Source of the DNA: Synechococcus sp. PCC 7336
GTDB taxonomy: Bacteria > Cyanobacteriota > Cyanobacteriia > Thermostichales > PCC-7336
Length of the DNA stretch: 64,000 nt
Direction: 5' to 3'
Assembly: GCF_000332275.1 (NCBI RefSeq)
Contig: NZ_CM001776.1
Location: 1-64,000, forward strand
Below, in pieces: positions 5,061 to 9,828 of the stretch. Under the pieces are notes generated by a model. The model was not told the origin of the DNA. It did no database searches and saw nothing but the letters and a program-made list of their open reading frames with translations. Position 1 is the stretch's first letter; each line of letters begins with the position of its first letter. Made by a program: the position numbers and the translations under genes.

Positions 5061-5504
5061 CTACCACTTTTTGTAGGGTAGGAACTTGCCGCACATAATC
5101 ACTTTGACCCGATCGCCTTTCGGGTCCTCCTCCTTTTCCACCTCGATCGAAAAGTCGATCGCACTCATAATGCCATCTCCAAACTTCTCGTGTACGACTG
5201 ACTTCACGGGCAAACCATACACTTGCATAATCTCGTAAAAGCGGTAGATGAGCGGATCGGTGGGCACTAACGGATCGAGCGCCCCTTTGAGGGGGCATTC
5301 CATCAGGGCTTCGACATAGCTGGAGTCGAGCCCGAGAGCCCCGATAATTTTCTTCGCCTCTTCTTCAGATGCGCTGGCTTGACGGTAGACTACAGCCGCA
5401 ACCCAAACTTCATCCCGACCGACAACTGCTTCGAGATCGGCAAAGGAGAGTCCCTTTTTCTTCTTTGCTGCCAAAAGTTCTTCCACAATGGGTGGAATAG
5501 CCAT
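5061..5504 (-). CDS. cynS: Cyanate hydratase (cyanase)
   Basis: Cyanase converts cyanate and bicarbonate to ammonia and CO2 in the cytoplasm, so cyanate can serve as a nitrogen source and is detoxified. The 147-residue product has the N-terminal helical domain and the C-terminal catalytic domain. Arg88, Glu91 and Ser114 keep the spacing of the catalytic Arg96, Glu99 and Ser122 of the E. coli enzyme; Arg and Glu lie in [15 protein letters not shown] and Ser in [19 protein letters not shown] ribosome binding site lies seven bases before the ATG. It is the last gene of the cyn operon, 160 bp after cynD, and ends at a terminator. Confidence 0.97.
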
Positions 5505-5664: not shown

Positions 5665-6552
5665 CTAAGTCTTGACTCTCGAAGCCTCCACCGCCCGCGT
5701 TTCTCTGTATAAATGCTGCTCCATTTCCACCTTCAGATCGTGGTAAGCCGGTTCGCGATCGATCGTCTCGCGGTTGCGGGGACGGGGGAAGGGCACGTCC
5801 AAAATCTCGTCAATGCGAGCAGCCGGTCCGCGCGTCATCATCACAATGCGATCGGAGAGCAGCAAAGCTTCCTCAATACTGTGGGTAATCATAATGACCG
5901 TTTTGCGCCGCTGCTCCCAAATCCGCTCCACCTCGTCCTGTAAAAAGCCGCGCGTCAGGGCATCTAAAGCCCCAAAGGGTTCGTCCATCAGCAGAATTTG
6001 AGGATCGATCGCCAGCGCTCGGGCAATTCCCACCCGCTGGCGCATCCCCCCCGATAGCTCGTGGGGATGGCGCTGCTCGGCTCCGGCTAACCCCACCAGT
6101 TCGATGTGCTCCTGCACGATCGCCTTCTGCTGGTCCACAGGCATGTGCGGATGTACCGTCTCGACGGCAAAACGAATATTTTGCTCCACCGTCATCCAAG
6201 GCATGAGGGCATAGGTTTGAAACACCATGCCGCGATCGGGTCCGGGACCGGTAATATCTTGGCCGTTCATTTGGACTGAGCCGCCGGAAGCTGCCGACAG
6301 CCCCGCAATTATCGACAGTAGGGTGGACTTGCCACATCCCGACGGACCAATAATTGACACGAAGGTGTTGGGCTCGATGTCCAAGCTGATGTCATCGATC
6401 GCCACAAAATCCGGTTTCGATCGCTTTAGCAGTTTATCCGCCCAACTTTGCTTGCCTGGAAACATCTTAGAGACATTACGGAGGGAAAGCTGAGTGGTTT
6501 TAGCAAGGGCGATTGCAGAGGAGTTGAGCTGAGTGTGAGAAGTGACTGTCAT
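5665..6552 (-). CDS. cynD: Cyanate ABC transporter ATPase
   Basis: This is the ATP-binding subunit of a NrtD/CmpD/CynD-type importer for small anions. The 295-residue product has Walker A GPSGCGKST, the Q-loop region MVFQTYALMPW, the ABC signature LSGGMRQR, Walker B ILLMDEPFGALD and the switch-histidine motif MITHSIEEAL. It resembles nitrate and bicarbonate importer ATPases, so substrate assignment rests on context: it is followed by cyanase and preceded by the permease and binding-protein genes. Its ATG overlaps the cynB stop (ATGA), showing translational coupling. Confidence 0.92.
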   Translation of the reverse strand: MTVTSHTQLNSSAIALAKTTQLSLRNVSKMFPGKQSWADKLLKRSKPDFVAIDDISLDIEPNTFVSIIGPSGCGKSTLLSIIAGLSAASGGSVQMNGQDITGPGPDRGMVFQTYALMPWMTVEQNIRFAVETVHPHMPVDQQKAIVQEHIELVGLAGAEQRHPHELSGGMRQRVGIARALAIDPQILLMDEPFGALDALTRGFLQDEVERIWEQRRKTVIMITHSIEEALLLSDRIVMMTRGPAARIDEILDVPFPRPRNRETIDREPAYHDLKVEMEQHLYRETRAVEASRVKT

Positions 6553-7430
6553 GATTGCCGTCCGAACGAAACCAAACTTTGCAAGATCCCAAAGATGCGA
6601 TCCAAAATAATGCCTACCAGACCGATAACCACAATGGCTGTGATGATGCTGGTAATGCTGAGGTTATTCCATTCATTCCAGACAAAATAGCCCAGACCGG
6701 TGCCCCCCACCAAAATCTCGGCAGCCACAATCACCAGCCAAGAAATCCCGATGCTAATGCGCAATCCCGAGACGATGTTGGGGGCAGCAGCGGGCAAGAT
6801 GACTTTCGAGATGGTGCGCCATTTCGAGGCTCCCAAGGTGCGAGACACATCCAAATATTCGGCGGAGACACCACTGACGCCAAACTTGGTGGCGATTAAG
6901 GTGGGCCAAATACTGGTAATGGCAATCACAAATATGGCTGTCGCTTCGGAGTTTTTCAGTACTCCCAAACCGATCGGCAACCAAGCGAGAGGAGACACGG
7001 GCTTGAGCAATTGTACGTAGGGGTCGATCGCTTTGGAGGCCACTTCGGATAGCCCCACTAAGATCCCCACCGGAATGGCGATCGCCGATCCCACCGCAAA
7101 CCCAATCGCCACCCGGCGCAGGCTGACTAAAAGGTGCCAGCCAATCCCTTTATCGTTAGGACCGAAGTCGTAAAACGGATCGGTAATCCAGCCCCAAAAC
7201 TCTGTAATAGTTGTAGAGGCTGAAGGCATTAATTGAGAGAATAACCCCAATCTCGCCCCCAGCTCCCAAACAATCAGAAGACCGCTCAGCGAGATGAGAA
7301 ATAGGCATAGGGCTTGAAGGTTGGGATCTGCGGGCCAAGCCCTAACGAAGCCCCGCCACGAGCGCCTCAACGAGCTTTTAAGCTCGTAGAACTTTGCTCT
7401 GTAGACAAAATTTGCCATTGTAAAATCCAA
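6549..7430 (-). CDS. cynB: Cyanate ABC transporter permease
   Basis: This is the inner-membrane subunit of the importer, in the NrtB/CmpB/SsuC family. The 293-residue product has a cytoplasmic N-terminus, a first membrane helix at about 40-60 and a binding-protein-dependent transport domain with further helices over about 95-285. The EAA loop that touches the ATPase lies at about SRTLGASKWRTISKVILPAA. It sits 48 bp after cynA and overlaps cynD by 4 bp, all on the minus strand. Cyanate as substrate is inferred from the neighbouring cynS. Confidence 0.92.
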   Translation of the reverse strand: MDFTMANFVYRAKFYELKSSLRRSWRGFVRAWPADPNLQALCLFLISLSGLLIVWELGARLGLFSQLMPSASTTITEFWGWITDPFYDFGPNDKGIGWHLLVSLRRVAIGFAVGSAIAIPVGILVGLSEVASKAIDPYVQLLKPVSPLAWLPIGLGVLKNSEATAIFVIAITSIWPTLIATKFGVSGVSAEYLDVSRTLGASKWRTISKVILPAAAPNIVSGLRISIGISWLVIVAAEILVGGTGLGYFVWNEWNNLSITSIITAIVVIGLVGIILDRIFGILQSLVSFGRQS

Positions 7431-7478: not shown

Positions 7479-9092
7479 TTAAACGCCGAATTGTTCGATT
7501 TGAGCTTCGACATAGGCGCTGGGATCGGCTGGGTCGAAGGAATCAAATTGCAACGTTTCAGGTCGGACTGCTGCGGTTGGCGGGGTTTGTCCCACTTCAA
7601 GGGCTAGCTCCCGCGCCAAATCAGTCAAGAAAACACCTTCACCGATCGATTCGTAATCCGCTCGTTCTTTGGGCAAGAAATCCCAGCGCACGAGTTGAGT
7701 GGAAATCCAATAGGAGAAACTCTGCCACGGATAGGGATCGAAATCGATTCGATCGGGAATGGAGTGGGTATTGCCCAGGCCATCCTCGAATTCTCCCGTC
7801 AGGACGGCCGCCACCACTTCTTCCGGTTGGTTGAGGAACTGGCGATCGGAAATAGCCGCTGCAATTTCTTTGCGGTTGGCAAGGTCGTGGGCATATCCGG
7901 CCCCGTCGATGATGGCTTTATTGAGAGCCCGGAAAGTATTGGGATGGTCGCCAATCCAGGCATCGCTGGCGGCAAAGGCACAACAGGGGTGTCCCGGCCA
8001 CAGGTCTTTGGTGATGAGGTGGATAAAGCCCACACCCTCGAAGACTGCCCGTTGGTTGAAGGGGTCGGGCATGAGGTAGGCATCGATGTCCCCCACTGTC
8101 ATCTTGGCCACGCTATCGGGGGGCGGCACCGGTTCGATCTTGACATCTTTATCGGGATCGATTCCGCCCGTGGCCAAGTAGTACCGCAGCAGCAAGTTGT
8201 GCATGGAATAGGGGAAGGGCACGCCAATGGTAAACCCTTTGAAGTCAGCAGGGCCTTTAACGGTGTCTTTATATTGATTGGCGACCGTGATGGCTTGCCC
8301 GTTAATGTTTTCAATGCTGGCTAGTTTGACGGGGAAGGTGGCCGAGCCCAACCCCAACGTCATGGCGATCGGCATGGGGGCCAGCATGTGATAGGCATCG
8401 AGTTCTCCGGCGATCGCCGAATCTCGGACGGCAGCCCAGCTAGGCATTTTGATCACGCGGGCATTCAAGCCATAGCGCCGATAGAACCCTAACGGCTCTG
8501 ACATAATAATGGGTGTGGCACAGGTGATGGGAATAAACCCGATTTGCAAGTCTGTTTTTTCGAGGGAACCGACGGGCGAGTCGTCAGGATCTTCCGCAAT
8601 AGAGGCAGGATCCTCGTTATTGGGCGCGCAGTTGGCTAAGGTGATTAACGCCGCTCCAACGGCGACGCTGCGCATAAAGTGACGGCGGGTGGTGCGGCTG
8701 AATCGCTTGGCATCGCCGAAAAATTCCCCCGCTCTAGGGCCGAAAGCTGCCGCAAAAGCATTGTCCAGACCGCCTGCAACGGTAACTAAATCTCGCACCA
8801 ATTTTTCCCGTTTGGCACTGCCGCGAGCAGCCATTTGCAAAAATAACGCCTTGCGAAGCTCAGATCGATCGATCGTACTCGCGAGTGAAAGCGCCTCTTG
8901 CTTGTAAACCCCCATTGCCACCAAGTCGTCAATCATTGCAAGGGGATCTGATGGCAAAAATTGCCCGTGGTCTTGACTGAGATGAAACCCTCCACAGACT
9001 GTACAAGTTGATTGAAAGTCATTGAAGCCAATCTGTTTGCCAGATAAACCCGATCTGTCTTTGCCTGTCGTAGCAGCAAAGGTAAAAGCCAT
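7479..9092 (-). CDS. cynA: Cyanate ABC transporter substrate-binding protein with N-terminal extension
   Basis: This is the solute receptor of the importer, in the NrtA/CmpA/CynA family (LQIGFIPITCATPIIMSEPL onwards). The 537-residue product is about 130 residues longer than usual. A Tat-like lipoprotein signal (SRTTRRHFMRSVAVGAALI, then LANC with Cys155 as lipobox) lies inside the protein at 132-155, behind an extension that contains CTVCGGFH at 30-37 and a helical stretch at 50-125. The long start is favoured by an AGGA ribosome binding site and by an NtcA-type promoter whose -10 box is only 34 bp upstream. A start at Met140 (8675) would give a bare lipoprotein signal but has no ribosome binding site. 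The function of the extension is unknown. Confidence 0.9.
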   Translation of the reverse strand: MAFTFAATTGKDRSGLSGKQIGFNDFQSTCTVCGGFHLSQDHGQFLPSDPLAMIDDLVAMGVYKQEALSLASTIDRSELRKALFLQMAARGSAKREKLVRDLVTVAGGLDNAFAAAFGPRAGEFFGDAKRFSRTTRRHFMRSVAVGAALITLANCAPNNEDPASIAEDPDDSPVGSLEKTDLQIGFIPITCATPIIMSEPLGFYRRYGLNARVIKMPSWAAVRDSAIAGELDAYHMLAPMPIAMTLGLGSATFPVKLASIENINGQAITVANQYKDTVKGPADFKGFTIGVPFPYSMHNLLLRYYLATGGIDPDKDVKIEPVPPPDSVAKMTVGDIDAYLMPDPFNQRAVFEGVGFIHLITKDLWPGHPCCAFAASDAWIGDHPNTFRALNKAIIDGAGYAHDLANRKEIAAAISDRQFLNQPEEVVAAVLTGEFEDGLGNTHSIPDRIDFDPYPWQSFSYWISTQLVRWDFLPKERADYESIGEGVFLTDLARELALEVGQTPPTAAVRPETLQFDSFDPADPSAYVEAQIEQFGV

Positions 9093-9125
9093 TTGAAATC
9101 CTATTCAATTGCACCAATGGGGCTT

Positions 9126-9167
9126 ATTAGAACGCTTATTTTTACCCGATTTTGTATCTGTAGATAC
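9126..9167 (-). promoter_or_regulatory. NtcA-activated promoter of the cyn operon
   Basis: On the minus strand GTATCTACAGATAC (9154-9167) is an exact match to the NtcA consensus GTA-N8-TAC and is nearly palindromic. Twenty-two bases downstream lies TCTAAT (9126-9131), one base from TATAAT. This is the canonical class II NtcA layout, in which the site replaces the -35 box. Transcription would begin near 9119, about 27 bases before the cynA ATG at 9092. NtcA control by nitrogen limitation is known for cyanate and nitrate genes in other cyanobacteria. Confidence 0.82.
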
Positions 9168-9194
9168 ATTAGTCGGGGAATGTAAAAATCTAAT

Positions 9195-9276
9195 CGATCT
9201 TTCATCAAAATAGAACGCACAACCACTCTGTCGTTCGATCTTTCATCAAAATAGAACGCACAATCACTCTGTCGTC
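9195..9276. repeat. 41-bp tandem duplication upstream of the cyn promoter
   Basis: Two adjacent 41-bp units (9195-9235 and 9236-9276) differ at only two positions. They begin 28 bp upstream of the NtcA site. 41 bp is close to four helical turns, so a protein bound to each unit would lie on the same DNA face. Open reading frames through the repeat are not convincing as genes. Confidence 0.9.
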
Positions 9277-9445: not shown

Positions 9446-9828
9446 CTATGTAGCCGGCTTACGTTTGAGAATGGGGCGTGACTGTTGCATCAAGGGATAA
9501 TTCTTGGGTCTGCTGTAGGCCATCATGTGAACCCAGAGTGCTTTGCGCACCATTGCTGGCGTCTTGGCTGCGAGCATTTCCATCTTCAAGGGGGTTTTGA
9601 CAGGCTTGAGATTGACCTCAGCCCCCTGCCAGCGCAGTTGATAGAGCTCAGCCAGTTTGGCCTTGGGATAGTGCAAAGGGTCACGACTGGGCTGTAGACA
9701 GATTCGCGATAGCTCACCTGTTCATCTTCGAGGGCTTGCTTGATGGTTGAGGCTGGCAGCAACTGCTGGAAAGGCAAGCCAACACTGTTGAGGAATTTCT
9801 GCTTGAGAATCTCGGCTCGATTCGGCAT
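9446..9828 (-). pseudogene. IS4-type transposase remnant, centre deleted
   Basis: The start of an IS4-family transposase (MPNRAEILKQKFLNSVGLPF, from 9828) runs to about SYRESVYSPVVTL. It then joins, in another frame, the family's C-terminal part (YPKAKLAELYQLRWQGAEVN, then KMEMLAAKTPAMVRKALWVH). The catalytic middle, several hundred residues in full-length relatives, is missing. What remains cannot encode an active transposase. The element lies between the cyn upstream region and folC. Confidence 0.8.

Follow-up and report, generated by a model that had tools for sequence, protein, structure and literature searches.

A Tat signal is expected near the N-terminus of a protein, but in CynA of Synechococcus sp. 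PCC 7336 the twin arginines stand at residue 136, behind a conserved extension of 130 residues. Is this long start genuine and, if so, what could a domain placed in front of an export signal do? We examined the window (the whole stretch of 64,000 nucleotides that was analysed) and compared the locus with homologous genes from other genomes. The features are collected in Table 1.

The cynA operon and its internal export signal

The permease, ATPase and cyanase genes cynB, cynD and cynS lie immediately downstream of cynA, and this gene order is kept in most of the homologous loci. The binding domain is of the NitT/TauT type (NMT1_2) that characterizes cyanobacterial CynA, and its relatives in the PDB are the regulatory domain of NrtC, NrtA (2g29) and CmpA (2i48). 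Because a cyanase gene is part of the operon and because of this family membership, we name CynA, putatively, the cyanate-binding protein of a cynABDS operon. The locus resembles CynABD of S. elongatus PCC 7942 in the gene set cynB, cynD and cynS, in the NitT/TauT-type binding domain and in nitrogen control. CynD consists of the ATPase domain only, a C-terminal regulatory domain of the NrtC type being absent as judged with the Pfam and NCBIfam models.

Table 1. Features of the cynA locus (positions in the window; residues are those of CynA).
Feature	Position	Strand	Basis or remark
CynA open reading frame, 537 residues	7479-9092	(-)	first gene of cynA-cynB-cynD-cynS
Substrate-binding domain, residues 177-537 and stop	7479..8564	(-)	NMT1_2 PF13379, E=2.7e-78; PDB relatives
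Disordered linker, residues 156-176	8565..8627	(-)	entropy 2.78 bits; low pLDDT at 155-173
Tat lipoprotein signal, residues 134-155 (RRHFM ... LANC)	8628..8693	(-)	TIGR01409; RRxF[LMI] in 113/113 homologues
N-terminal extension, residues 1-131	8700..9092	(-)	conserved across CynA-clade homologues; core dN/dS 0.052
Helical core, residues 50-131, invariant A106-G-G, A115, F117-G118, F124	8700..8945	(-)	AlphaFold2 and invariant columns
C30-x2-C33-G-x2-H37-x4-H42 motif, possible metal (zinc) site	8967..9005	(-)	conserved columns
Variable N-terminal tail, residues 1-29, probably disordered	9006..9092	(-)	mean column entropy 2.66 bits; pLDDT about 30
AGGA ribosome-binding-like site	9099..9102	(-)	-10 to -7, 6 nt before ATG
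-10-like hexamer TCTAAT (5/6 to TATAAT)	9126..9131	(-)	22 nt after NtcA site, 33 bp before ATG
NtcA-type palindromic site GTATCTACAGATAC	9154-9167	(-)	sequence; GTA-N8-TAC
cynB permease	6549..7430	(-)	BPD_transp_1 and TIGR01183, both above cut-off
cynD ATPase, 295 aa	5665..6552	(-)	ABC_tran and TIGR01184, both above cut-off
cynS cyanase	5061..5504	(-)	TIGR00673 above cut-off

The original prediction, made from the DNA sequence of the window, had placed a Tat lipoprotein signal inside the protein and not at its N-terminus. We found it as described: the NCBIfam model TIGR01409 matches residues 134-158 with 17.4 bits against a cut-off of 16.7, and CynA has an RRxFLK-type motif (R136-R137-H-F-M), a hydrophobic stretch and a lipobox with its cysteine (LANC155). 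The signal region has a median dN/dS of 0.029. Cys155 is present in a lipobox-like context in 98 of 112 aligned homologues. Seven of 113 homologues (L009, L010, L013, L014, L118, L121, and L122) have no lipobox cysteine, so processing by signal peptidase II cannot hold for the whole family. Most of these have A-x-A-like sequences slightly downstream, which suggests that they may be processed by signal peptidase I instead.

Conservation, selection and promoter of the long start

An extension peculiar to the genome of PCC 7336 was considered and rejected. The first 155 residues of CynA match 15 of 39 related genomes, a profile of the extension has hits in 30 of the 386 genomes from the phylum, and 127 loci in the GTDB species genomes encode it, the best 80 of these 127, on which all GTDB detail rests, being cyanobacterial without exception as judged from the record names; each of these genome collections is a sample. 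A search with the binding domain only separated the homologues into two groups that lie well apart. The group with at least 65% identity comprises 30 loci, which come from 29 genomes and have open frames of 531-595 aa; the extension profile hits all 29 of these sampled genomes. The group with 36-40% identity has frames of 441-482 aa (NrtA/CmpA-like) or 667-714 aa (NrtC/CmpC-like). NrtA and CmpA share with CynA a homologous binding domain (E 7e-52 for 2g29, 2e-44 for 2i48) and a Tat-type twin-arginine signal; they differ from it in having no extension, since the five NrtA/CmpA-like frames that were read start 4-13 residues before the twin arginines.

Every intact match shows the order extension, signal, binding domain. 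In the genomes searched, the extension occurred neither free-standing nor attached to a different protein, and no second copy was detected in the genome of PCC 7336 at E up to 10. Among plasmid records it occurs once, on a cyanobacterial cynABDS operon, and RefSeq annotates the long form of CynA in Pseudanabaena sp. ABRG5-3. The genomes that carry it include small-genome genera (1.7-2.9 Mb) which look like Prochlorococcus and marine Synechococcus. Pairwise identities of extension and binding domain correlate (Spearman 0.64), as expected from joint inheritance. Judged from these matches, the extension is a general and constant property of the cyanobacterial CynA clade.

Some copies are broken. 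A frameshift around residue 92 interrupts the cynA extension of a genome of about 2.70 Mb (G037; L018:1441-1900), which appears from its size to be S. elongatus-like and differs from PCC 7336 in this respect; it could be a sequencing error, decay or a real truncation. Two more copies have reading frames broken in or just after the extension, one at L078:6001-6435 and one in G312 (L128), the single profile-matched genome that comes in addition to the 29.

The median dN/dS (from 29-32 non-overlapping pairs) is 0.052 for the extension core, residues 30-131, against 0.048 for the binding domain, with 31-32 pairs behind this comparison. Purifying selection acts on the core as it does on the binding domain. 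The tail of residues 1-29 is under looser selection (dN/dS 0.30). Upstream of the conserved core there is a single start codon of any kind (ATG, GTG or TTG), the annotated ATG at 9092.

An NtcA-type promoter with its -10 box had been predicted close to this ATG; the sequence there has an NtcA-type site, which ends 61 bp before the ATG, and a -10-like hexamer. Of 113 distinct homologous genes, 27 carry GTA-N8-TAC at a distance of 50-78 bp upstream of the long start, where the frequency of the site in the window would predict about 0.4; since the genes are related, this comparison is descriptive. Even in lineages with extensions that have diverged to about 50% identity, the site keeps its place with respect to the long start. 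Just upstream of the site in PCC 7336, at 9194-9275 of the window, two copies of a 41-bp sequence stand side by side as a direct repeat and are 98% identical. Farther upstream of cynA, a fragment at 9446-9676 on the (-) strand matches a DDE transposase weakly (E 0.007, below the Pfam cut-off) and is perhaps the remnant of an insertion sequence.

These observations bear on the possibility that the start codon is mis-assigned, with translation beginning just before the twin arginines and the upstream frame being open by chance. NrtA and CmpA do begin there, and n-regions annotated too long through a wrong start call are a familiar error (for example PMC10924467). This explanation is nevertheless refuted by the homologues and can hardly be right: the core is conserved at the protein level with a dN/dS of about 0.05, and the NtcA site is placed relative to the long start. 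We likewise rejected a start at Met140, since this residue is Leu in most homologues and Met in only 12 of 113, and starting there would remove the twin arginines. The alignment with homologues had been proposed beforehand as the check; it shows the extension to be conserved in the CynA clade, and the homologues do not all start near residue 130. The central claim, a genuine long extension read from an NtcA-driven message, is supported by homologues, dN/dS, start codon and promoter position alike.

Structure of the extension

The sequence CTVCGGFH, singled out in the original prediction, corresponds to residues 30-37 and forms most of a C2H2-like motif. In 112 sequences C30 is conserved in 99, C33 in 105, H37 in 105 and H42 in 111; a relaxed Cys/His pattern is found in 104 of 113 homologues and is missing or altered in 9 of 113. 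This pattern suggests that the motif binds zinc, as a candidate site. It is followed by further conserved positions: M/L-P-x-D-P, D56, M60, A106-G-G-L, A115-A-F-G118, and F124-F.

An AlphaFold2 model of the extension, computed from 64 sequences, has six helices between residues 50 and 131, with block pLDDT values of 84-89 for residues 81-130, a mean of 66.7 and a pTM of 0.42. The core is therein predicted, at moderate confidence, to be a helical bundle. In the full-length model, a signal helix at 136-154 is followed by a disordered linker and a confidently modelled binding domain, with the extension at lower confidence.

The extension matched no family in Pfam or NCBIfam, and nothing in the PDB either by sequence profile or by fold (Foldseek, VIA-align). 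A description of an N-terminal domain of CynA was not found in the openly licensed literature searched. The core is a real, conserved domain of about 100 residues that lacks characterised relatives in these databases. To our knowledge, signal-peptide programs inspect only the first residues of a protein, and therefore both the export signal of CynA and the domain preceding it would be overlooked. The domain so overlooked is constant across cyanobacterial CynA, including that of small-genome genera resembling marine picocyanobacteria.

Possible topology and role

The architecture of extension, signal and binding domain is well supported; from it we infer the topology. A Tat signal enters the membrane as a loop and its N-terminus stays on the cytoplasmic side; for this reason a folded domain before the twin arginines should remain cytoplasmic. 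The CynA precursor would consist of a mostly helical, possibly metal-binding domain of about 131 residues, the Tat lipoprotein signal and the cyanate-binding domain. The binding domain alone would be exported by Tat, leaving the extension at the cytoplasmic face, tethered to the membrane by the signal helix. Signal peptidase II would then cut before Cys155 and leave a membrane-tethered cytoplasmic fragment of about 154 residues in a ratio of 1:1 with the exported lipoprotein. Part of an exported protein thus probably remains inside the cell. Of the earlier suggestions, a cytoplasmic domain of regulatory or chaperone-like function may be right. A second protein made from the same message survives only as this cleavage fragment, as there is no separate reading frame for it; beyond that, there is no support for a polyprotein piece.

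The cyanate/nitrite transporter is reported to be inhibited by ammonium in a PII-dependent manner (PMC4390861; PMC6603209), and the ammonium inhibition of NRT needs the C-terminal domain of NrtC together with PII (PMC6603209). The nitrate transporter thus has a cytoplasmic regulatory domain of its own, which may be why the extension is found on CynA and not on NrtA or CmpA. Since the cyanate/nitrite transporter is reportedly subject to this inhibition and yet CynD has an ATPase domain only, the extension is a candidate for the missing regulatory element, and our hypothesis, by analogy, is that it regulates the CynBD transporter or docks to it. The C-terminal domain of NrtC/CmpC could be a parallel, being a cytoplasmic domain through which nitrogen status controls an ABC transporter for uptake; however, the NrtC domain is a binding-protein-like fold on an ATPase, and that of CynA a small, helical one on a binding-protein precursor, with no sequence similarity detected between the two. 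Should the extension regulate the transporter, the cytoplasmic element that the ammonium/PII inhibition of cyanate uptake still lacks would be found, and CynA would illustrate cleanly that what precedes a signal peptide on the cytoplasmic side can have a function of its own. As a whole, a precursor with a tethered, cytoplasmic N-in extension that is cleaved by signal peptidase II and regulates or docks CynBD is the best explanation, and we put its chances at about even. The bolder proposal that one precursor gives two working proteins, an exported cyanate-binding lipoprotein and a tethered cytoplasmic domain reporting the nitrogen status to the transporter, is doubtful for now.

The main rival is a domain that controls export or biogenesis in cis, holding or shielding the Tat signal as long as the binding domain is unfolded or TatBC is occupied, and that has no role after cleavage. 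The invariable attachment of the extension directly to the Tat signal speaks for it, as does its retention on paralogues that have no adjacent transporter (see below). On the other hand, NrtA and CmpA manage without an extension although they carry the same kind of twin-arginine signal, and nothing in the CynA binding domain points to a cofactor in need of proofreading. If export control were true, the extension would be like the Tat chaperones of the TorD/DmsD type in partnering a Tat signal as a helical domain in the cytoplasm; it differs from them in acting in cis, in its length of about 100 residues and in its C2H2-like motif, and we found no similarity to them in sequence or fold. We regard export control as possible but somewhat unlikely. 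Cleavage could also be partial or not occur, leaving CynA as a bitopic protein, with extension inside and binding domain outside, that joins the receptor in the periplasm to a partner in the cytoplasm. For the homologues devoid of the lipobox cysteine, an uncleaved form is conceivable, and the linker of the full-length model is long enough for a mobile binding domain, but the prevalence of Cys155 and the A-x-A-like sequences of most homologues without it make a bitopic CynA improbable.

The paralogues mentioned above form an orphan clade of about 17 CynA-like genes that are 62-66% identical, have kept extension and Tat signal, and have no cynBDS directly adjacent (L022, L025, L027, L031, L037, L042, L053, L069, L074, and L085 among them). 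Judged from the record names among the best 80 of the 127 loci, almost all their hosts also have an operonic copy, and the orphan proteins may serve the same CynBD as additional receptors. Their sequences indicate that the domain stays with the receptor where the transporter genes are not adjacent. As they carry the extension in such places, a role linked to the binding protein fits as well as one linked to the transporter. In one of these loci (L085:7705-8674), the orphan paralogue is followed by a gene that appears, by eye and from its N-terminal sequence only, to encode a CobW/G3E GTPase-like protein.
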